Shown here piece by piece: positions 10,853 through 51,448 of a stretch of 64,000 nucleotides of DNA. The position numbers were made by a program, and so were the translations under genes. How positions within the stretch are numbered: the stretch's first letter is position 1; the number at the start of each line of letters is the position of its first letter. Source of the stretch: Magnolia sinica. Its lineage: Eukaryota; Streptophyta; Magnoliopsida; Magnoliales; Magnoliaceae. The DNA lies in NCBI RefSeq assembly GCF_029962835.1, contig NC_080584.1:78830862-78894861 (forward strand), written 5' to 3'. Below the pieces are notes generated by a model. The model was not told the DNA's origin. It was given only the letters and a program-made list of their open reading frames with translations, and searched no databases.

Positions 10853-13354
10853 CTACTCGTTGGAACTTGCTGACGACACGCTTTTGGACCGTGAATTGGA
10901 CCGTGAATTGGTTGATGAATTGCTCGGCAGTTCAGAGCTTTGAGAAGCCACCGGTGAAGAGTTGGAGAAGAAAACCATGTTCTGATTTTCTATGAGAATC
11001 TGAAGTGATCTCGGTACCGGTGGGACGTTTGCTTCCAAAACACCCTCCAAGATTTGAATAACCTGCCCCATAGACGGCCTGTCATTCTCGTCATCTTGAA
11101 TGCACCAGCCTGCAACCCTGCAAGCTCGACCAAGCTCTTCCATGTTCGCATTTCCCTCCAATCTGTAATCCAACAAGCAATGGATTTCACCATCCATGAT
11201 TTTTCTCAGAGCCCAAATCGGGAAAAAGACTGTTTCCCCAACCCCCGATTGCTCTGTATTCCTCCTCCCTGAAATGACCTCGAAAACCATCATCCCATAG
11301 CTGTAGACATCGGCTTTTGGCGTGATTGCCAGGCCTGAAATCCATTCAGGAGCAAGATAGCCTCTTGTTCCTCTCATGGTTGTTAAAACCCGACTGAATT
11401 CCCGTCCAACAAGCTTTGCCAGACCAAAATCAGCCACCTTGGGACAGAACCCACCATCCAGAAGTATGTTTTCTGGCTTAATGTCGCAATGTATGATACA
11501 GTCTCTGCATTTCTCATGAAGATAAGATATTCCTCTTGCCGTCCCAATCGCAATCTGATACCTCGTTGGCCAATCCAGGAGATTGGAATTCTTACCAAAC
11601 AGATGAGAATCCAAAGACCCATTTGGCATGTAATCATAGACAAGCAGCCTTTTAGCCCTTTCGGAGCAAAACCCACGAAGGCGGATGAGATTAACGTGTT
11701 GGATCGTTCCGATTGTGCTAACCTCCGTCCGGAACTGCTTTTCTCCTTGCCGAAGCCCTTCAAGCTTCTTCACTGCTACTGTTGTTTGATCAGGTAAAGT
11801 CCCTTTGAAAACAGAACCGAAACCTCCACCGCCTAATTTCTCTGAGAAATTCTTCGTTGCAATCTGCAGACTTCGGTAGCTAAATGCAGTCAAAGAGCCT
11901 TGAACTGCCTCCGAACATACCATTTTCCGTCCCCACCGTCGCCTCCAAATAAAAAATAGAACAATACCCAATATAAAAACAGCTCCTGCAACTGCGCCTA
12001 CAACAGCCCATGTAATGGTTCCCTTCCTACTGACTGAAAACTTCATTTCAGAGGGATCAAGACGGAGATGAAGAGTGCCTTCGTCAACATTTCCACCAGA
12101 CAACTGCTTCAGATCTAACAATTCTCCATTCCATATCAAACACCTGCTCTTGAAAGCATAAGCAGTGCAAGAACAGTCATTTAAGCAAGCCAATTCACAT
12201 TCTCTGTCACTCCCAACTGCCAAAAATCGAGAGCGGTCTGGCAGCTTCATGCCGGACAAAGCCCAAAACCTGTCTTTCTCACCATCAAAAGACACATTCT
12301 GCCCACACCTCAAAGGAGTTTTCCTCCTGCACCCACCTGACCAACTACTCAAATTCCAGTCATTCGGAGACTTTGGCTCGAAACCATGCAAGCACGTACA
12401 GGACGACAAGCTCTCCTCTTTGCAGCTCCCAAAGGCCCCACAAATAGCATAAACCTCACATTTAGATCTTGGCTGAGACCAGAACAGATTCCATGAATGT
12501 GAGTCTTTCCGCCATAAAAAGGAATTCATTTGGCCTGAAGAACCCATCACGAATCTCGTAAGGATGGAATCATTTTTCACCGAATAAGTGAAAAACTTCC
12601 TCTCTTTGGTTTCATTGAAATTGAAATTGAATATGTAATTCCATATCATTTCGGGGACTTTGCTGAAAATATTTCCATCCCAATCCCCACTAGTCCAGTA
12701 ATTTCGAGTCCCATTCCACGTCATAACATACTGTGTGCTTCGGCTCGGGTCTATTGAGAGAGAGAATGGCCCAGGGGCCGGATCTTCGGAGTTCTTCCAT
12801 GAAGTAAGCCGGTTGTTTTCCTTCGTCACCTTGTTCAAACCAAGCCACCCTCCAGGCAGCCATGTATGAGTTGGGTGATCAAAGCTCTGCCAGTGCAGGA
12901 CAGACGGATCAGACCGGTCTCTCAGAACTAGATTTCCATTATCTAGGAGGACCGCAACAGTCGGGTTCAACGGCTTGGATGTTAGATTGGTTGACCAGAT
13001 TGGAAATTTTGAGGCGCTGACGAGGACTAGATTGCCATCTTCTGCAATTGTTAGGATTGAATTGGTGGGATTTGGGAGGGGCTTTTCTCTGTTAGCTACC
13101 CAGACAACTGTTTGTTCTGAGATCTGTTTGTACCAGATGCCTATGTAGTAGTTTTGGGATTTGCCTGGTGTGAAGAAACCCAGTTCAAATATCCCGCGTT
13201 GGGAGGTTAGGTTATGGGGCCAACTAAGATGTTGAGTTGGGGCGATGGAATCTAAACCATTGGAGAGGTGGGCCTTGAGAGAAAGGATGAAGAAGAGGAG
13301 GAGAGAGAGAGATGGCATGATTCTTCTGATATCCATGCCTACTGAAACATGCAA
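10853..13354 (-). CDS. G-type lectin S-receptor-like Ser/Thr kinase (At2g19130-like), copy A
   Basis: Intronless 833-residue receptor kinase, full length for the family. Order: signal peptide (about 13-32, LSLLLFFILSLKAH); bulb lectin domain (about 40-165, with VVWVANRE at 83-90 and GNLVL at 140-144); S-locus glycoprotein region (about 200-330, with SGDWDG at 222-227); Cys-rich EGF/PAN part (about 300-431); membrane segment (about 447-470) followed by RRRW; kinase (about 503-775). Kinase residues visible: Gly loop GGGGFG at 508-513, Lys529 in VAVKK, Glu544, HCDIKPEN with Asp624, DFG at 642-644, APE at 668-670. The Arg of HRD is Cys, so it is a non-RD kinase. The Ser-rich tail has a 12-bp in-frame repeat (SRSNSRS) that copy B lacks. 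All key residues are present, so it is probably active at the plasma membrane; ligand unknown. Translation could instead start at residue 7 (MDIRR), just before the signal peptide. Confidence 0.95.
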   Translation of the reverse strand: MHVSVGMDIRRIMPSLSLLLFFILSLKAHLSNGLDSIAPTQHLSWPHNLTSQRGIFELGFFTPGKSQNYYIGIWYKQISEQTVVWVANREKPLPNPTNSILTIAEDGNLVLVSASKFPIWSTNLTSKPLNPTVAVLLDNGNLVLRDRSDPSVLHWQSFDHPTHTWLPGGWLGLNKVTKENNRLTSWKNSEDPAPGPFSLSIDPSRSTQYVMTWNGTRNYWTSGDWDGNIFSKVPEMIWNYIFNFNFNETKERKFFTYSVKNDSILTRFVMGSSGQMNSFLWRKDSHSWNLFWSQPRSKCEVYAICGAFGSCKEESLSSCTCLHGFEPKSPNDWNLSSWSGGCRRKTPLRCGQNVSFDGEKDRFWALSGMKLPDRSRFLAVGSDRECELACLNDCSCTAYAFKSRCLIWNGELLDLKQLSGGNVDEGTLHLRLDPSEMKFSVSRKGTITWAVVGAVAGAVFILGIVLFFIWRRRWGRKMVCSEAVQGSLTAFSYRSLQIATKNFSEKLGGGGFGSVFKGTLPDQTTVAVKKLEGLRQGEKQFRTEVSTIGTIQHVNLIRLRGFCSERAKRLLVYDYMPNGSLDSHLFGKNSNLLDWPTRYQIAIGTARGISYLHEKCRDCIIHCDIKPENILLDGGFCPKVADFGLAKLVGREFSRVLTTMRGTRGYLAPEWISGLAITPKADVYSYGMMVFEVISGRRNTEQSGVGETVFFPIWALRKIMDGEIHCLLDYRLEGNANMEELGRACRVAGWCIQDDENDRPSMGQVIQILEGVLEANVPPVPRSLQILIENQNMVFFSNSSPVASQSSELPSNSSTNSRSNSRSKSVSSASSNE

Positions 13355-13520
13355 GATATATGTAGGAAGGAGAAGATACGATGAGGTGCTTGGAAGGAGG
13401 TTTCCTGGTATTAAAGTGCGAAGTTAAAATTACTTAAATACCCCGTGGTTACCATGGTTGACTGGTTCTTCAAAGTTCAAATTTTGCGGCTGAAACACCC
13501 TTCTAGACATATACGGTCAA
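13355..13520 (-). promoter_or_regulatory. Putative promoter of kinase A: TATA-like and two W-boxes
   Basis: Reading the minus strand, TATTTAAG (plus 13433-13440) lies about 80 bp before the start codon. Further upstream are W-box cores: TTGACT on the plus strand at 13458-13463 and TTGACC on the minus strand at 13515-13520. All three sit at matching places upstream of kinase B, although nearby non-coding sequence has drifted. W-boxes bind WRKY factors, common at immune receptor genes. Function is inferred from sequence only. Confidence 0.4.
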
Positions 13521-19589: not shown

Positions 19590-20760
19590 CAAACATATAA
19601 TGCGCCCACAGCCTCACACAAAGGTTTAATATACAACACAATGGGCCTTACACAAGGACCACATATACACAACAGGTGGGCCCTGCTCATGGGCCTCAAA
19701 TACATGACATGTGGGCCCTGCACATAAGTCTCGAATGCATCAAATGGGTCGGGCATAATAATATCACGATGGGCCTTGCCCATAAGCCGAGAATACATCA
19801 AAATGGGCCTTGCCCATGGGCCATGAATACATACAATGGGCCTTGCCCATGGGCCTCAAATACATCATAATGGGTCCCATCACCTAGGCCTCAATACACA
19901 TCTCATTGGGCCTTGGACATGGGATGAATACACATCACGTCAGGTCTCAAATACGGGTCACATATACATCACATTGAGCCTTGACAATCAAAATCGGCAA
20001 TCGACCACGACAAATTAGAATCGGTAATCGGCCTCGATCGATATTCGGCAATCGGCCACGACAAATCAAAATCGGTAATCGGCAATTGGCCACGACAAAT
20101 CAGAATCGGAAATTGGCCTCGATCGATAATCGGCAATCGGCCATGACAAATCAAAATCGAAAATCAGCCTCGATCGATAATCAGCGATCGGCCACGACAA
20201 ATCAGAATCGGAAATCGGCCACGATAAATCAGAATTGGTAATTGGCCTCGATCGATAATCAGCAATCGACCACGACAAATCAGAATCGGTGATCGGTAAT
20301 CGGCCATGACAAATCAGAATAAAAAATCTGCCTCGATCGATAATCGGCAATCGACCATAACAAATCAGAATCAGAAATCGGCCTCGATCGATAATCGGCA
20401 ATCGGCCACGACAAATCAGAATTGAAAATCGTCCTCGATCGATATTCGACAATCGGTGAGAATCCTATCAAGGCCTAAGGGAAGGTCACAATGTAGACAT
20501 CTAACCATCATTGCGGATCAATGTGGACATTTAACCAACATTTTCCCTAATGGGGTAGTCCACATAGAACCAAACACATAATGGCCCCACGGCCTCGCAC
20601 AAGGGCCTCGAATACATCACATCGGGCCTTATCCATGGGCCTCCAATACATCACATTGGGCCTTGCCCATGGGCCTCGAATACATTAAAAGGGTCACGCG
20701 TCATGGGCCTAATACATGTCACAATGGGCCTTAGATTCAAACAGGTGGGCCCCATCATAT
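19590..20760. repeat. Two interleaved tandem arrays inside the gypsy LTR
   Basis: Outer array (about 19590-19990 and 20590-20760): ~33-36-bp units of the GGGCCTTGCCCATGGGCCTC / AATACATCAC type. Inner array (about 19981-20455): about nine ~51-bp units with AATCGGCCACGACAAATCAG and CCTCGATCGATAATCGG. A further ~65-bp direct repeat (ATGTGGACATTTAACCAA ... CACATAGA.CCAAACA) brackets the inner array near 19540 and 20520. No convincing coding; open frames here are repeat artefacts. Confidence 0.75.
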
Positions 20761-24140: not shown

Positions 24141-27100
24141 TTAGCTGAAAACTTAGAAAATTTTCCATTTTGAAACCAGGTTTTCAGACTTTTAACCTCT
24201 ATGTTGTTCTAAGTCTTTTAAGGCTTTTATTTACCTGGGTGTTTTCGAATTTGGAATGTGAACCTGATTTACCTGTGACAAGCTCGGAACACACATCTGA
24301 TTGAGGTGATAGCTTGATCAATCTTCATATGGGGCTTACCTGACTCACCGACTCAATCTTCACGCTAATTGACAAACTAGGGCACTTTCGGTAGGGACAT
24401 CTTCTGATGCATTGTTTACGAGAAGTAAGAAAACAAAGCGAAAGGTACAGGATCTTTAAGACCTATATCCAAATCAAAGGGCAAGGGCAAAGGAAAATTA
24501 AAGTGCTAGAACTATGAAATGATTGGACACATGAAGAAGGATTGTACAAATCCTAAAGCAAAGAAAGAAAACTCAGAGGCTTCTTCCAGGAAGGCTAATT
24601 TTGTCACATCTGATGAAAAGACAAGTGGAGGTGATGTTCTGTCTGTGTCCATGATCGGACACTTGCACGACAATCATAGAGACGAGTAGATCTTTGACAT
24701 AAGAACGTCATATCACATGACTCCTTATTGGAGTTGATTTTTTAGTTACAAAGAATGCGATGGTGGACATGTCTTTATGGGCAATGACAATGCATGTAAT
24801 ATTGTGGCTATTAGTACAGTGAGTATCAAGATGTTTGATGGTATGGAGCATACTTTGACTGATGTCAGGCACATTCCTGATATGAAGAAAAGTCTAATAT
24901 TAATTCTCTTTGTGCACTCGAGGTTATAGGGTGTAAGTTTACTGGGCTTAATGGTGTCCTTAAAGTTTCAAAAGGGAACTTGTGGTTATGAGAGCGCAAA
25001 GGCACGAAAAATTTTACAGGTTAATCAGGAGCACTTCAGCAGGTGGAGCGGCAGAGGCTGTTGCGGATTTCATGTCTACACGTATGTGGCATACCCTTCT
25101 GGGCCAAATGAGCAAGCGGGGTATGAAGGTACTATCTGATCATTATTTGATTCCAGTTTTTAAGAATTCTGATTTAGATATATGTGAACATTGTATATAT
25201 AGTAAACAATTTAGATTATCTCTTAAATCTGGAAACCATGTATGTAAGGGAGTGCTTGATTATGTGCACTCTGATGTATGGGGGCTATCGCTAGAGGTTT
25301 CCGTTAGGGGGTCAGCATGGTTTGTTTCATTCATTAACGACTACTCTCGAAAATTTTGGGTTTACTTTATGAAACATAAATCTGAAGTTTTCACTATATT
25401 TAAACAATGGAAGGCAATGGTGGAAAAATGATCAGGGTGAAAAATAAGGTTTTAGAGATTAACAATGGTGGAGAATTTACTTCCACTGAGTTTAATGAAT
25501 ATTGTAAGGATGAATGGATCATTAAGCACAACACAATGCGCCACACACTCGAATAAAACAGTGTGGCTGAGCAGATGAATCGAACTCTCTTTGAGAGGGC
25601 CTGATGCATGTTATGTAATACTGCATTGGGTAAGGACCTATGGACAGAGACCATTAACACAGCTTGCTATTTAGTGAACTAGTCTCCTTTGACAATAATT
25701 GAATGTAAAATCTTAGTGGAAGTATGAGTGGTCATAAGATGAACTACTCAGATTTGCACATATTTGGTTGTGAGGCTTACTCTCATGTACCGTCAGTTGA
25801 GAGATAAGCTAAACCATAAAGCCAAAAATATATCTTTGTTGACTATGGTGTTGGTGTAAAAGGTTATAGGTTATTCGATAAGGTCACGCGCAAGGTTATC
25901 ACTAACTGTGACGTCAAATTTGATAAAAGCACCCTATTCCATAAGAATAATCAACGAGGAGCAAGAGGAACCAGAAAGGTTGATCGTAGAAGTTTAGATT
26001 GACATATATGATACTCAAGTAGAGACAAATGCGCAGACAGATATACATGAGAAGGTGGAGTAGCCACCTGTGAGAAGAAACTATAACACCCTGGTTCTCA
26101 TAACCCGAGGACGATCGCTCAAGTATGAGAACCCAAGTATTACACTACGAAGTAACCAACTTTACATCTAATTACTAGAAAATTTCATGATGTAAAACAA
26201 GGCAACTACCATGTAAACTAGAATATCAAGAGTAACAACAAAGAAGTTTAATACAAGTAATTGAAAGCAACATGGAATCCCACAGCAGGGGAATTGTTAT
26301 TACAGCTCAAACAAAACTTAAAGTATAGGATACGAAAGTAAGTAAAATCCTAAGATATCAATTAAGCTTCAACGGCTCAACTACATTCACATTGAGTACT
26401 TCCTCGCCAAACTCCACCTTAGTTGTCCCTAGAATCCCATCATAGGAGGTCTCCACCTGTTCATCATACTTGTGTTTATTTGGTGCAACTGCACAATTGG
26501 GTAAGTGAAAACTTAGTGAAAATTTTCTGCAAGGATTCACGCATATCAATTTATTCCAAATTAGTTTCAATCAACATATTACATCTTAATAGAAATAATA
26601 TGAACTCAAATATAAACGTATGGATGTATGAATGTATGTTCAAGTCATAGACCTAGGGATACACATCCAGCTGTCAAAATAAAAGGTCGCCTAAGGAGAA
26701 CTAGTCACCTAGAAAAATATTCAAAGATACACCTAAGGAGAACTACGCACCCGAAAAAGACCATGCAGGTGAGTGCGCCTAAGGATATCTCCTGAAAAAA
26801 TACACGGGGTACACCCAAGGAGTGTCTAATCCCAGAAAAGCCTCATGTAAAGAAAGAACGCCCTAAGTGACACAAATGCACATGCTCTATGAGTTTAACT
26901 AAAGTGATAGAACTTTCAGGAATTCGATCAGAGTGTGGCTTACATTTAGCACTCAAAAAAGCTCATATGTCGTGCGTGTATACCATGCACCATGATACTC
27001 ATGCACACCATAGGATTCATAGGATTATATTCATAAATGTGGTCAAAGCTCATGGTCTTTTAATAGTATATCAACCATCCACACTTGGGTTTAATATAAA

Positions 27101-31985: not shown

Positions 31986-32484
31986 TGAAGAGTTGAACAC
32001 GACAAGTAAATATAATTTTATTTATTACAAATACTTGTACACAACAATGGTATACTTTACAACACTCACAAACTATCACTCTTGAATGACAACTCTCACA
32101 CACAAGGAAAAACTTTTTTGAAGTCTTAATACTTGGACACCTTACTTTTACTCTTGAACTCACTCTTTATTGTTTATGTGTTATGTACATAATGAGGCTC
32201 TTCCCATATTTATAGAGAGCTATGGAAGATTCTAGAATCAATATAACTCTAAAGGGTTATAGAAGCTTCCAGAAATCCTATAAAGTTCTATTATATTCCG
32301 GAACATTCTAAGAGAATCCGGAAGGTTCTAGCATAGTCCGGAACATTGTGGAAGAGTCAAGAAAACTCTATCAAACTCTAGAAGTTTCTGGAAGATTCTA
32401 GAGAATTCTAGAACTTTTCAAAAATGTCTGGAAGTTTTTGGAAGACTCCGGAATATTTAAGAGAGGTGGTGATGACATTTAACA
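31986..32484 (-). repeat. 3' LTR of the minus-strand copia
   Basis: In element orientation it starts TGTTAAATGTCATCACC and ends ..CAACTCTTCA. It contains the heat-shock-element array and TATA box described at 32207-32413. Confidence 0.88.
32207..32413 (-). promoter_or_regulatory. LTR promoter with heat-shock-element array
   Basis: GAA and TTC pentamers alternate with exact 5-bp phasing. At 32381-32413 seven consecutive units (GAA, TTC, GAA, TTC, GAG, TTC, GAA) occur, six of them perfect. A three-unit element GAAGATTCTAGAA lies at 32225-32237. On the minus strand TATAAATA (plus 32207-32214) lies just downstream of these, so the order HSE then TATA fits a U3 promoter. The other LTR keeps the three-unit site at 35917-35929 and a partly decayed long array near 36070-36106. 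HSF-bound HSEs of this kind drive the heat-activated ONSEN copia of Arabidopsis; activity here is inferred. Confidence 0.65.
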
Positions 32485-35400
32485 GTCCCCCTCAGCACCA
32501 ACTCTCACAATTCTGCCTTGGTCATCATGCCAAGTTGTTTTTTGAATTCGGTGAACTTAGTATTGCTAAGTCCTTTTGTGAGTATGTCTGCAACTTGATC
32601 ATCGGTCTTCACATGACTCATCTCGATTTCTTCTTGAAGTACCTTCTCTCTCACGAAGTGATAGTGTACCTCCACATACTTAGTCCTGGCATGAAACACT
32701 GGATTCTCAGCCAAGCAGAATGCTGATAGATTGTCGCGGCGCAATATCATTGGATAATCATCTAGTTGATGAAGATCCCTCATTAAATGTATAAGCCATG
32801 TGCTTTCTTGTGCTGCCATCGCCATTGCTCTGTATTCAGCCTCCGTGGTTGATAAAGATACTGTAGGTTGTCTCTTGCTACACCAAGAGATTGCTCCTGA
32901 GCCAAGGTTGAATACGTATCCAGTAGTTGATCGTCGTGTATCATGATCACCACCATAGTCAGCATCGCAGTACCCAACTATCTTGCATACTCCACTTTTC
33001 TTATATAATAGACCAAGGTCTATCGTACCCTTCACATACCTCAGTATTTGACATACTGCTTCAAGTTGCGGCTTCTTTGGTATTTGTATGAACCGGCTAA
33101 CCACACCAACTGCATAAGCTATATCTGGTCGTGATAATGTAAAGTAGATTAGAATACCAACTATTTGTTGGTACATAGTTACATCTTCCAAGTCTTTTCC
33201 TTCTTCCGAACATAGTCTGGCGTTAACCTCTATAGGTTTGGCAATTGGCTTGCATTCAAGCATCCCATATTTCTTTAATAGGTCTTTGGCATACTTCTGC
33301 TGACAGAGGAATCTGCCTTTGTTGCTTTGGTCAATCTCTAACCCAATAAAATGCTTTAGTTCTCCAAGTTCCTTCATTTGGAATCGCACAAACAAGTTCT
33401 CTCTTGTCCTTTCAATCTCACTGTCATTATCTCCAGTGATGATTAAGTCATCCACGTATACTAGCACTATTGCTAGTTTACCTTCCTGAAATTTTACAAA
33501 GAGACTGGAGTCCACAGGTGCCACCGAGAACCCACTTTGCACTAAAAATTCCCCTATCTTGTCGTACCATGCCCTAGGTGCTTATTTAAGCTCATACAAG
33601 GCCTTCTTTAGTTTGCAGACGTAATCTTGATGCCTTTTACTCTGGAAACCACTTGGCTGCTCCATGTAGATATCTTGATCAATTTCTCCATGTAGAAAGG
33701 CATTCTTCACATCCATCTGCCACAACTTCCAAGATTTGCTCGCTGCAAGTGCTAGTAATACTCGCACCATTATAATTTTTTCTACTGGGCTAAAAGTCTC
33801 ATCATAGTCCAACCCATATTCTTGTGAGAATCCTCTAGCCACTAGTCGAGCTTTGTACCTTTTTATTGATCCATCAGGGTGAGTCTTGACTTTGTATACC
33901 CATTTGCATGATATCAACTTCACATCCTTGGGTTTTAGAACTAGTTCCCAAGTCTGATTTTGGTTCAATGCCTTAATATCTTCTTCCAACGCCTTCTGCC
34001 ATTTTATGTCTCGGGATGCTTCTTCAAATGTCGTTAGCTCTTTCACAGTCTCTTCTTCTGCTAAGGCAGCATCCACGTATCTTGGGTTAAGCTTTCTTTA
34101 TCTAGTCAACCTCCTAAGTGGTGGGTTGTCTACCGCACCCTCTTGTTGACTCGGGCAAAGCTCTTCTAGACTACTTTGATGTACTCTAGTTTGCCATGGA
34201 CTCATCGATTTATCTAGTGTTCCAAACAGATTAGGCACTTACTCACCATCTCATGCTATAGGCATCAACTCCTTAGTTGAACTAGGAGATTCTTCTCCTT
34301 CCCTTGTCTCCTCCATCTTCTCATGCAATTCATCTTCTAAGTCTTGAGAGTTTGGCAGCTCCTCCTTCAGTGGTGACCACCATGATGAGGTTTCATCAAA
34401 GACAACATTTCTAGATATATAGCACCCTGAATCAACGATCCAATCATCACTGTAGTTGATAGCTCCTTGATTGGAAACTGCGGTAAGGGCTATTTCACCA
34501 GTCTTTGTCACTATTGAGGAAGCAGCTACTTCGTCAATGACTGCGTTAGACTGCTTGAGTGGTTCGTCAAAATCTATCTCTTTATCTGAACAATCTCCTT
34601 TGATAGATTCAGACACTGCTAAGGATGTCTGAAAGTCCCAATCATCTTCACTGTCTTCTTGGTGATTTCTAGAAGTCACCAAGTTACCTTCGACTGATTT
34701 TTTCTTGAACCAACAATTTTTTACAAAGTGACATTTCTTGCCGCAATTGAAACACTCTATATCACACCTTCGAGATACGGATGATCGTCGTTTATTTGTG
34801 TTGTTGTCGGATTGAACTCCCCCTATCCGAGGACTTCTTCCTTATGCTTCTCTCTTCTTGGACTTTCCAAAGTTCTGCTAACTTTATTTGCCCTTTCTGT
34901 TTTGCTGTCGATGTCCGCCTTTTTTATTATTACAGTAGAATGTTTCATTTTCCTTGTTTATCGATGCTCCAACCATTTGTTTACATAAACTTTCTTGATT
35001 GGCCAACAAATTCTCCAACTCTATGAGAGTAGGTTGAGTAGGCCAACCTCGTATTGCCGTGATAAAAGTATTATACTCGGGCTTCAACCCGTGTATAATG
35101 ATCCTCCTCATTCTTTCCTCATGAATATTTGCTTTAGGATCCAATTTTGAAATTTCTCGGCATAAATCCTTCACACCTGTAAAGTATTCGCTTATCGACT
35201 TATTTCCTTGGGTGGTGGACATTAACTTATTCTCCAAATATTGAAGTCGAGCATCATTTGTTTTTGGAAACAATGATGCAAAGGTGTCTCATGCCATCTT
35301 GGGTGTGTCATCATCCTTGATTCGCACGAGCAATTCATCCTCGATGGTTGACTTGAGCACGTACATTACCTCCCAGCCTTAATCTTCCACTTTTGGAGTG

Positions 35401-35680
35401 ATTCAGCATTTTTCTTAGGAGGTGGAGTAATCTCATTCTCATTAACAACCTCCCACAAGTCCTGCCGTTCAAGGTAGGACTTAATGTGACTCTTCCAACT
35501 TTGATAGTTATTGTTGTTAAGCTTCGTAACTCCGCATGTTATGTTCACAAGATCCGCCATCGTGACTTGGTGTGATTATCACTCCCTTTACCAAGCAAGC
35601 CAACAAACTTCACAGTCTCCAAACTGTGCACGATCACCTTAGAAAACGGATCCCGACCAAACCTCGCTCTGATACCAAAT

Positions 35681-36176
35681 TGAGGAGTTGGACATGACAA
35701 GTAAATGTAATTTTATTTATTACAAATATTTATACACAACAATGGTATGCTTTACAACACTCACAAACTATCACTCTTGAATGACAACTCTCACACACAA
35801 GAAAAACTCTTTTGAAGTCTTAATACTTGGACACCTTGCTTTCACTCGTGAACTCACTCTTTGTTGTTGGTGTTATATACATAATGAGGCTCTCCCCATA
35901 TTTATAGAGAGCTATGGAAGATTCTAGAATCAATATAACTCTAAAGAGTTCTAGAAGCTTCCAGATATCCTATAAGGTTCTATTATATTCCGGATTATTC
36001 TAAGAGAATCCGAAAGGTTCTAGCATAGTCCGGAACATTGCGGAAGAGTCAAGAAAACTCTATCAAACTCTAGAAGTTTCTGAAAGATTTTAGAAAATTC
36101 TAGAATTTTTCAGAAATGTCTAGAAGTTTTCAAAAGACTCCGGAATATTCAAGAGAGGTGGTAATGACATTTAACA
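35681..36176 (-). repeat. 5' LTR of the minus-strand copia
   Basis: In element orientation it starts TGTTAAATGTCATTACC and ends CAACTCCTCA, followed by AT and a gap base before the tRNA-Met primer site (GCTCTGATACCA on the plus strand at 35666-35677). Confidence 0.88.
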
Positions 36177-48786: not shown

Positions 48787-51276
48787 CTACTCCTTGGAAC
48801 TTGCTGACGACACGCTTTTGGACTGTGAATTCGTTGATGAATTGCTTGGCAGTTCAGAGCTTTGAGAAGCCGCCGGTGAAGAGTTGGAGAAGAAAACCAC
48901 GTTCTGATTTTCTGCGAGAATCTGAAGCGATCTCGGTACCGGTGGGACGTTTGCTTCCAAAACACCCTCCAAGATTTGAATAACCTGCCCCATAGACGGC
49001 CTGTCATTCTCGTCGTCTTGAATGCACCAGCCTGCAACTCTGCAAGCTCGACCAAGCTCTTCCATGTTCGCATTTCCCTCCAATCTGTAATCCAACAAGC
49101 AATGGATTTCACCATCCATGATTTTTCTCAGAGCCCAAATCGGGAAAAAGACTGTTTCCCCAACCGCCGATTGCTCTGTATTCCTCCTCCCTGAAATGAT
49201 CTCGAAAACCATCATCCCATAGCTGTAGACATCGGCTTTTGGCGTGATTGCAAGGCCTGAAATCCATTCAGGAGCAAGATAGCCTCTTGTTCCTCTCATG
49301 GTTGTTAAAACCCGACTGAATTCCCGTCCAACAAGCTTTGCCAGACCAAAATCAGCCACCTTGGGACAGAACCCACCATTCAGAAGTATGTTTTCTGGCT
49401 TAATATCGCAATGTATGATACAGTCTCTGCATTTCTCATGAAGATAAGATATTCCTCTTGCCGTCCCAATCGCAATCTGATACCTCGTTGGCCAATCCAG
49501 GACATTGGAATTCTTACCAAACAGATGAGAATCCAAAGACCCATTTGGCATGTAATCATAGACAAGCAGCCTTTTAGCCATTTCCGAGCAAAACCCACGA
49601 AGGCGGATGAGATTAACGTGTTGGATCGTCCCGATTGTGCTAACCTCCGTCCGGAACTGCTTTTCTCCTTGCCGAAGCCCTTCAAGCTTCTTCACTGCCA
49701 CAGTTGTTTGATCAGGTAAAGTCCCTTTGAAAACAGAACCGAAACCTCCACCGCCTAATTTCTCTGAGAAGTTCTTCGTTGCCATCTGCAGACTTCGGTA
49801 GCTAAATGCAGTCAAAGAGCCTTGAACTGCATCCGAACATACCATATTCAGTTGCCACCGTCGCCTCCAAATAAAAAACAGTGCAATACCCAATAGAAAA
49901 ACAGCTCCTGCAACTGCGCCTACAACAGCCCATGTAATGGTTCCCTTCCTACTGACCGAAAACTTCATTTCAGAGGGATCAAGACGGAGATGAAGAGTGC
50001 CTTCGTCAACATTTCCACCAGACAACTGCTTCAGATCTAACAATTCTCCATTCCATATCAAACACCTGCTCTTGAAAGCATAAGCAGTGCAAGAACAGTC
50101 ATTTAAGCAAGCCAATTCACATTCTCTGTCACTCCCAACTGCCAAAGATCGATTGTGGTCTGGCAGCTTCATGCCGGACAAATTCCAAAACCTGTCTTTC
50201 TCACCATCAAAAGACACATTCTGCCCACACCTCAAAGGAGTTTTCCTCTTGCACCCACCTGACCAACTACTCAAATTCCAGTCATTCGGAGACTTTGGCT
50301 CGAAACCCTGCAAGCACGTACAGAACGACGAGCTCTCCTCTTTGCAGCTCCCAAAGGCCCCACAAAGAGCATAAACCTTACACTGAGATCTTGGCTGAGA
50401 CCAGAACAGATTCCATGAATGTGAGTTTTTCAGCCATGAAAACTGTTGAATTTGGCCTGAAAAACCCATCACGAATCTTGAAAGGATGAAATCATTTCTC
50501 ACCGAGTATGTGAAAAACTTCCTCTCTTTGGTTTCATTGAAGCTGAAATCGTATATATAATTCGATGTCATTTCGGGTACTAAGTTGAAAATATTTCCAT
50601 CCCAATCCCCACTAGTCCAGTAATTTTGAGTCCCATTCCACATCAAAAAATACTGCGTGCTTCGGTTCGGGTCTATTGAGAGAGAGAATGGCCCAGGGGC
50701 CGGATCTTCGGAGTTCTTCCATGAAGTAAGCCGTTGGTTTTCCTTCGTCACCTTGTTCAAACCAAGCCACCCTCCAGGCAGCCATGTATGAGTTGGGTGA
50801 TCAAAGCTCTGCCAGTGCAGGACAGACGGATCGGACCGGTCTCTCAGAACTAGATTTCCATCATCTCGGAGGACCACAACAGTCGAGTTCAACGGCTTGG
50901 ATGTTAGATTGGTGGACCAGATTGGAAATTTCGAGGTGCTGAGGAGGACTAGATTGCCATCTTCTGCAATTGTTAGGATTGAATTGGAGGGATTTGGGAG
51001 GGGCTTTTCTCTGTTAGCTACCCAGACAACTGTTTGTTCTGAGATCTGTTTGTACCAGATGCCTATGTAGTACTTCTGGGATTTGCCTGGTGTGAAGAAA
51101 CCCAGTTCAAATATCCTACCTTGGGAGGTTAGGTTATGGGGCCAACTAAGATGTTGAGTTGGGGTGATGGAATCTAAACCATTGGAGAGGTGGGCCTTGA
51201 GAGAAAGGATGAAGAAGAGGAGGAGAGAGAGAGATGGCATGCTTCTTCTGGTATCCATGCCTACTGAAACATGCAT
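48787..51276 (-). CDS. G-type lectin S-receptor-like Ser/Thr kinase (At2g19130-like), copy B
   Basis: Intronless 829-residue paralogue of the gene at 10853-13354, aligned without gaps until the Ser-rich tail, where it is 4 residues shorter. Same order: signal peptide, bulb lectin, S-locus glycoprotein region, PAN, membrane segment (about 447-470), kinase with GGGGFG at 508-513, Lys529, HCDIKPEN, DFG and APE; also non-RD. The frame stays open upstream to an ATG at 51405, but that ATG lies beyond the TATA-like box conserved in both copies, so I chose the start matching copy A. About 60 residues differ from A. Nearly half lie in residues 200-330, while residues 381-460 are identical and the kinase differs at about eight sites. 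All catalytic residues are kept; likely functional at the plasma membrane, ligand unknown. Confidence 0.95.
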   Translation of the reverse strand: MHVSVGMDTRRSMPSLSLLLFFILSLKAHLSNGLDSITPTQHLSWPHNLTSQGRIFELGFFTPGKSQKYYIGIWYKQISEQTVVWVANREKPLPNPSNSILTIAEDGNLVLLSTSKFPIWSTNLTSKPLNSTVVVLRDDGNLVLRDRSDPSVLHWQSFDHPTHTWLPGGWLGLNKVTKENQRLTSWKNSEDPAPGPFSLSIDPNRSTQYFLMWNGTQNYWTSGDWDGNIFNLVPEMTSNYIYDFSFNETKERKFFTYSVRNDFILSRFVMGFSGQIQQFSWLKNSHSWNLFWSQPRSQCKVYALCGAFGSCKEESSSFCTCLQGFEPKSPNDWNLSSWSGGCKRKTPLRCGQNVSFDGEKDRFWNLSGMKLPDHNRSLAVGSDRECELACLNDCSCTAYAFKSRCLIWNGELLDLKQLSGGNVDEGTLHLRLDPSEMKFSVSRKGTITWAVVGAVAGAVFLLGIALFFIWRRRWQLNMVCSDAVQGSLTAFSYRSLQMATKNFSEKLGGGGFGSVFKGTLPDQTTVAVKKLEGLRQGEKQFRTEVSTIGTIQHVNLIRLRGFCSEMAKRLLVYDYMPNGSLDSHLFGKNSNVLDWPTRYQIAIGTARGISYLHEKCRDCIIHCDIKPENILLNGGFCPKVADFGLAKLVGREFSRVLTTMRGTRGYLAPEWISGLAITPKADVYSYGMMVFEIISGRRNTEQSAVGETVFFPIWALRKIMDGEIHCLLDYRLEGNANMEELGRACRVAGWCIQDDENDRPSMGQVIQILEGVLEANVPPVPRSLQILAENQNVVFFSNSSPAASQSSELPSNSSTNSQSKSVSSASSKE

Positions 51277-51448
51277 GGACATGCAAGATATATGTAGGGA
51301 GGAGAAGATACGATGAGGTGCTTGAAAGGAGGTTTCCTGGTATTGAAGTGCGAAGTTAAAATTACTTAAATACCCCTTGGTTACCATGGTTGACTGGTTC
51401 TTCAAAGTTCAAATTTTGCGGCTGAAACACCCTTCTAGACATGGTCAA
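51277..51448 (-). promoter_or_regulatory. Putative promoter of kinase B
   Basis: TATTTAAG (minus strand; plus 51365-51372), TTGACT (51390-51395) and TTGACC (minus; plus 51443-51448) stand at places equivalent to those upstream of kinase A. An extra CATGCATGGA-like insertion near 51272-51288 separates start codon and TATA slightly more than in A. Confidence 0.4.

Follow-up and report, generated by a model that had tools for sequence, protein, structure and literature searches.

Whether a plant retrotransposon has taken over the heat shock response of its host, and whether it did so as a single copy or as a family, is the question raised by a Ty1/copia long terminal repeat (LTR) in Magnolia sinica. 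The stretch of DNA analysed here (64,000 nucleotides, hereafter the window) was earlier noted, from its letters alone, to carry an array of heat shock elements (HSEs) placed before a TATA box. Below we describe the element and its array, the distribution of both across the genome, and how far the pattern of sequence change speaks for a role in binding HSFs.

The element carrying the array

The window element is a Ty1/copia LTR retrotransposon, having two direct LTRs with TG...CA ends, a primer-binding site, a polypurine tract and RVT_2 domains, all on the minus strand. Its 3' LTR (31986..32484, minus strand; 499 bp with TGTTAA...TTCA ends) carries the reported array, and the 5' LTR of the same element (35681..36176, minus strand) lies 3.69 kb from it. 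The two are 93% identical across a 300-nt block that includes U3, and as a pair give a K2P of 0.079. Adjoining the 5' LTR is the primer-binding site TGGTATCAGAGC (35666-35677, minus strand), which we take to match plant copia elements primed by initiator tRNA-Met, and the first ten bases of which come directly after several other 5' LTRs of the family. The polypurine tract TGAGGGGGAC (32485..32494, minus strand) adjoins the 3' LTR, and TGAGGGGGAG was found at this position in 10 of the 13 elements compared.

The coding regions are broken. A stop divides the reverse transcriptase region (32505..34097, minus strand) into two open pieces (32505-33581 and 33582-34097), and in both of these RVT_2, the copia-type reverse transcriptase domain, scored above the Pfam cut-off. 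The gag region (34884..35575, minus strand) likewise survives as pieces recognized by Pfam domains, with DUF4219 above the cut-off at 35366-35575 and Retrotran_gag_2 slightly under the curated cut-off at 34884-35288. Between gag and reverse transcriptase is a piece (34251..34841, minus strand) in whose translation a CCHC knuckle and a protease-like DSG can be recognized by eye; Pfam found no retroelement domain in this piece. It includes a breakpoint near 34426, past which a deletion has removed the integrase region, and no integrase domain was found by Pfam in the minus-strand pieces of the window copy that were scanned.

An extended HSE ladder in U3

Read on the minus strand, U3 extends from the start of the LTR to the TATA box TATAAATA, which in the 3' LTR is located at 32207..32214 (minus strand). 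The main HSE ladder occupies 32286..32458 (minus strand) and consists of 35 slots for GAA or TTC in one 10-bp register; with its in-register units reaching from ~32458 to 32286, the array is larger than first noted. It is followed by a middle three-unit HSE that is off the register of the main ladder (32262..32274, minus strand), and by a promoter-proximal three-unit HSE (32225..32237, minus strand) that stops 10 bp short of the TATA box. The earlier note had placed a three-unit site just upstream of TATAAATA, and it is indeed present there at 32237-32225. Its identical counterpart in the 5' LTR (35917..35929, minus strand) reads 35929-35917, in agreement with the claim that both LTRs keep traces of the array. 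A block of "seven contiguous units" had also been reported (32381..32413, minus strand), and this was correct only in part: the phased block does exist at 32413-32381, but it reads TTC, GAA, an imperfect CTC as the third unit, and then four perfect units (32398-32381), making four the best perfect run.

On a 5-bp grid the 3' LTR contains one perfect GAA/TTC run of four units and three of three units, and the 5' LTR three runs of three units. By the definition of a strong 4P-type HSE, in which at least four adjacent inverted nGAAn units stand at 5-bp spacing, the 3' LTR thus possesses one (4 units) and the 5' LTR does not (3 units). One fixed 10-bp register across the 270-bp U3 takes in 18 perfect units of the 3' LTR and 16 of the 5' LTR. 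When each was subjected to 500 dinucleotide shuffles, the count averaged ~4 and never exceeded 8, so that the description of the array as far beyond chance holds for both LTRs. A 270-bp sliding scan of the window gave scores of 9 or more only in stretches overlapping either LTR, and at most 8 elsewhere.

The array is shared by the LTR family

A DNA search with window positions 32100-32500 returned 128 candidates, from which 40 LTRs were scored (the window's two and 38 further genomic LTRs; 38 align nearly end to end); as this query contained the array, the sample favours array-bearing copies, and relatives with a different U3 may be missed. A perfect run of at least three units was present in all 40 scored LTRs and one of at least four units in 22, the longest run being three units in 18 LTRs, four in 11, five in 2, six in 6 and seven in 3. 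In-register counts averaged 18.3 (range 12-23), versus 4.1 in the shuffled controls. Downstream of the TATA box the longest run was a single unit in 38 of the 40 and two units in the remaining 2. The earlier note had taken the array to be a property of the family and had named family LTRs without phased HSEs as one observation that would count against it; phased HSEs were found in 40 of the 40 LTRs scored.

Aligning the 40 LTRs revealed that 23 out of 54 register slots hold an exact unit in at least half of the copies, and that all 23 are inside the 35-slot block. Among the nine other registers, six had no slot occupied in at least half of the copies, and the remaining three had 1, 3 and 4 such slots, of which shifted proximal HSEs may be the source. 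The position of the TATA box deviates by no more than 3 bp from one offset in 37 of the 40 LTRs, exact TATAAATA being absent in 3. Each copy carries 2-8 CpG dinucleotides in U3 and 0-2 in R-U5.

Long perfect runs are concentrated in this family

We searched the genome (1,838,573,281 bases, 127 contigs) for six perfect alternating units using two patterns, each self-reverse-complementary. These matched 17 positions each, corresponding to 21 distinct places, and a reversed control pattern gave 0 matches. Twenty of the 21 places with at least six perfect units fall in LTRs of this family, which further supports the array as a family trait; the only other one (L074) is located inside a 126-codon open reading frame. 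The longest run found genome-wide comprises nine units (C2:4251769-4251811). An origin of the array by chance is ruled out by the shuffles, the reversed-pattern control and the other registers taken together.

A search for five units gave 37 and 34 matches for the two patterns versus 12 and 8 for the control pattern, and isolated five-unit sites are near background. Runs of at least five perfect units occupy 36 distinct places, 26 in the family and 10 elsewhere, where two runs within one C9 LTR are counted as one place, and where family status was assigned by alignment in 24 cases and by location inside LTRs of the family search in two. That long HSE runs are simply common in the Magnolia sinica genome is ruled out by these 26 of 36 places falling in one family. 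When 270-bp stretches around the ten non-family places were scored, nine reached 6-8 in-register units, no higher than the background of the window goes, and one (L086) reached 11, as compared to 12-23 in the family LTRs. Three non-family places (L085, L087 and L088, at C14:77.68M, C18:62.28M and C18:62.37M) carry five-unit HSEs that resemble one another, in surroundings that seem to be shared on inspection by eye, and possibly represent another repeat family. Around positions 345-470 of a further place (L081, C7:47.83M), many CTAGAA-like words come after a five-unit HSE, but only 6 units keep strict register; this may be another degenerate repeat with HSEs.

As a positive control we used the upstream stretches of 19 of the 47 HSP20-domain matches (19 of the 21 best-scoring). 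The longest perfect run was three units in 3 of these, two in 14 and one in 2, and the best 270 bp held 3-7 in-register units, these stretches being approximate as transcription starts are unannotated. The small-HSP upstream regions sampled thus score far below the family LTRs.

Age of the family and an integrase-less form

The family is a moderately repeated Ty1/copia family of Magnolia sinica. Thirteen LTR pairs were compared, and in 11 of them K2P ranged from 0.048 to 0.101, a figure that includes two pairs with partly fetched LTRs (C17:72.66M and C3:123.9M, 423 and 446 sites). Two values (0.137 at C10:11.4M and 0.229 at C12:80.3M) were set aside, one LTR being truncated and unaligned sequence having entered the comparison, and the pairs at C10:75.34M and C3:123.9M, with LTRs 8-11 kb apart, may not be single simple elements. 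Across a larger set of 55 LTRs (the 40 plus 15 pattern hits) identity has a median of 90.1% and reaches 95.3% in the closest pair from different elements. Judged from these divergences, the family is an old, star-like burst, with no recent activity evident in the 55-LTR sample.

Inspection by eye of the 11 pairs with readable outer flanks revealed an exact 5-bp target-site duplication in 7, a duplication with one mismatch in 2 and none in 2, one of these last being the window copy (flanks CCGTT and TCCTA). Of 40 scored matches (88 candidates), 15, the window copy among them, run across the breakpoint near 34426 and 25 stop there, as is consistent with these 25 being copies that lack the integrase deletion. 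Four copies other than that of the window (C2:4.25M, C10:84.09M, C17:72.66M and C79) share this breakpoint and are flanked by exact 5-bp target-site duplications that differ from one to the next, which argues that the deleted form moved as such. The integrase-deleted form, a non-autonomous one, was probably mobilised in trans by enzymes supplied to it.

Possible constraint and decay within the array

When changes were placed on a tree of the 40 LTRs, internal and terminal branches held 26 and 137 of them in core columns, and 57 and 278 in R-U5 columns (p = 0.80). This branch-based test therefore detected no lower rate in the core than in R-U5 columns and lends no support to selection on the array; it is a weak test, given that 89% of the tree length is terminal. 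At the 12 columns of the TATA box, internal changes were relatively more frequent (6 internal and 6 terminal).

Columns were also compared after splitting them by base, a post hoc comparison whose p values are uncorrected. Core columns that have A or T as the majority base and match the motif had undergone 0.20 changes per column (60 columns). The rate was 0.82 for the 44 A/T spacer columns (p = 0.003) and 0.73 for the 140 A/T columns of R-U5 (p = 0.0002), whilst the six A/T core columns that do not match the motif had 1.0 changes per column. At the LTR tip, which is needed for integration, the 12 A/T columns had zero changes, indicating that low change marks functional sequence here. Selecting A/T columns by register offset alone, with no motif match needed, gave 0.23 changes per column (62 columns) versus 0.83 for the rest; when the register was slid through nine shifts as a control, values ranged from 0.24 to 0.86, the lowest belonging to the shift by 5, which shares core positions.

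C/G core columns accumulated 5.6 changes per column, the figure for spacers being 3.9 (p = 0.06) and that for R-U5 being 3.2 (p = 0.001). They are the fastest-changing columns, and present-day copies are thus losing their sites. At C/G core positions, C to T and G to A account for most terminal changes, the pattern expected of methylated cytosines, and since the same two changes also dominate at C and G in R-U5, this decay is not specific to the array. The low change at A/T core positions is consistent with past selection. Selection for HSF binding before insertion, followed by methylation-driven decay, would account for both the slow A/T and the fast C/G columns, although a context-dependent mutation rate may be an alternative cause of the contrast.

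A predicted HSF-driven promoter and its alternatives

We consider it probable that in the active past of this family its LTR served as an HSF-driven, heat-inducible promoter working in the mode of ONSEN. Its U3 consists largely of HSEs, with some 35 five-base GAA/TTC slots in one helical register over ~175 bp, followed by the middle and the TATA-proximal three-unit HSEs. Trimeric class-A HSFs (of the HSFA1/HSFA2 type) would bind neighbouring units cooperatively, and by analogy many such trimers could line up on one helical phase up to just before the TATA box, from which HSF binding under heat stress would then set off transcription. The family might in this way have amplified through the heat response of its host, as ONSEN does, with an integrase-deleted subset presumably moved in trans. 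Once inserted, copies would have been methylated, and C-to-T decay would have eroded their sites.

The array could instead be a decayed minisatellite, a palindromic decamer that expanded by chance tandem duplication within an LTR and was then copied passively without any role for HSFs, which we regard as unlikely. Tandem Repeats Finder does report period-20 arrays in both LTRs (32297-32347 and 36084-36132), U3 length is nearly constant in the family (by the TATA offset, in 37 of 40), and the internal-versus-terminal branch test gave no core constraint, all of which fit a passive repeat. Such a repeat should, however, decay evenly, and the A/T cores have changed about four times less than A/T spacers or A/T columns of R-U5. 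When in-register decamers were pooled, most core positions were also more informative than the adjacent spacer, with exceptions at one spacer base and at the final A of GAA. The ladder may well have originated by duplication, which is compatible with function; in the excerpted account of PMC5059998 a duplication origin is proposed for the ONSEN array as well.

A promoter bound by HSFs might alternatively have had another main trigger (oxidative, developmental or seed-maturation HSFs), or might have been occupied chiefly by repressive class-B HSFs. HSF families answer several cues, and the sequence cannot tell which HSF binds; nonetheless, we rate this reading as improbable, since 4P-type heat-responsive arrangements track strong heat induction in the Brassicaceae copia LTRs described in excerpts of PMC5059998. 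Least credible of all is that the repeats work at the level of RNA, as hairpins for packaging, dimerisation or polyadenylation, instead of as sites in DNA. Compared with 200 dinucleotide shuffles, U3 RNA from the 3' LTR does show better folding (z = -3.4), but intact decamers placed in shuffled order fold equally well (mean z +0.29 in 12 of the 40 LTRs), so that folding is a by-product of palindromic units, no specific retained structure is apparent and RNA folding is ruled out as the main cause.

Returning to the HSF-driven promoter, the evidence from sequence suggests that the family once spread by answering heat. A more far-reaching combination of these points can be offered only tentatively: an independent magnoliid copia lineage with possibly the densest natural HSF promoter described, richer in perfect units than the small-HSP promoters of its host, whose ladder was kept by selection through its burst, whose integrase-less derivative spread, and whose wave of insertions was driven by the heat shock response.

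Genomic neighbourhood and implications

The earlier note had also raised the possibility of a heat enhancer in the neighbourhood of a receptor gene. Two G-type lectin receptor kinase genes, each with B_lectin, S_locus_glycop, PAN_2 and kinase domains by Pfam, flank the element: one at 10853-13423 (minus strand), 18.6 kb downstream in the sense of the element, and the other at 48787-51408 (minus strand), 12.6 kb upstream. At these distances, and with both of the window's LTRs decayed, the enhancer proposal is unsupported. The two kinases are 92% identical in protein sequence over 825 residues, and this pair of S-receptor-like kinases is apparently a local duplication lying on either side of a transposon-bearing stretch. 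Also within the window are a complex tandem array (19986-20456) made up of ATCGG-type units, its nested periods ranging from 27 to 214 bp, and a fragment of another retroelement with a gag_pre-integrs domain (24964-25431, plus strand).

Heat-captured retrotransposons are best documented in Brassicaceae. If our reading is true, the same strategy of heat capture arose in magnolia in a more extreme form, and the heat shock response would have been the main driver of one transposon wave in this lineage. In this threatened tree, the family could thereby have dispersed strong predicted HSF sites across the genome. Moreover, its dozens of scattered copies form a graded series, from 3 to 9 intact units in succession, allowing the number of units to be compared with heat response.

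Comparison with known heat-responsive promoters

Among the matches listed in our literature search of open-licence PMC papers, none deals with a copia family of Magnolia that bears HSEs. The closest likeness is to ONSEN (ATCOPIA78) of Arabidopsis and its relatives, likewise a Ty1/copia element with clusters of nGAAn/nTTCn in its LTR promoter, and with capture of HSFA1/HSFA2 as its proposed mechanism (excerpts of PMC3907296 and PMC5059998). According to PMC3907296, the ONSEN LTR is bound in vitro by HSFA2, and its activation is HSFA1-dependent and to a large extent HSFA2-dependent too. Excerpts of Pietzenuk et al. 2016 (PMC5059998) relate at least four adjacent nGAAn units to the binding of two HSFA2 trimers and to the strongest heat induction of copia LTRs, with Brassicaceae LTRs bearing four such adjacent units being induced up to about a thousand-fold. 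The same account assigns to A. thaliana ONSEN a gap heat-responsive element together with a 4P one, the latter being 3P in one copy, whereas the magnolia family has ~35 slots plus two further sites. Base composition differs also: the magnolia units include CpG-containing TTCCGGAA, whereas in the sections of PMC3907296 consulted the LTRs of two ONSEN copies have only CHH cytosines, and with 2-8 CpG per U3, unlike the CHH-only ONSEN LTR, silencing may have come to dominate in the magnolia family. The heat response has been measured for ONSEN; that of the magnolia family is predicted from its sequence. With its magnolia host and an array architecture that differs from the published description of ONSEN, the magnolia lineage is likely independent of ONSEN.

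Other COPIA families of Brassicaceae (TERESTRA, COPIA37 and ROMANIAT5) resemble the magnolia family in having gained heat-responsive elements independently in copia LTRs. In the excerpted account these comprise at most six clustered nGAAn and are young and species-specific (PMC5059998), whereas in magnolia the array is present in 40 of the 40 scored copies of an old burst. Outside Brassicaceae, heat-induced elements include the cotton copia GBRE-1, the bamboo gypsy elements PHRE1/2 and relatives of ONSEN in adzuki bean, for which the parts of the review consulted (PMC9780303) mention no HSE ladder. The nearest parallel in architecture is artificial: reporters in which repeated HSEs with TTCTAGAA stand before a minimal promoter are described in excerpts of PMC4326385 as reporting the heat shock pathway, and these are man-made for mammalian cells, whereas the magnolia ladder is a natural transposon promoter. 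The magnolia LTR probably embodies the same principle as an ONSEN-type promoter, in a far more extended form.
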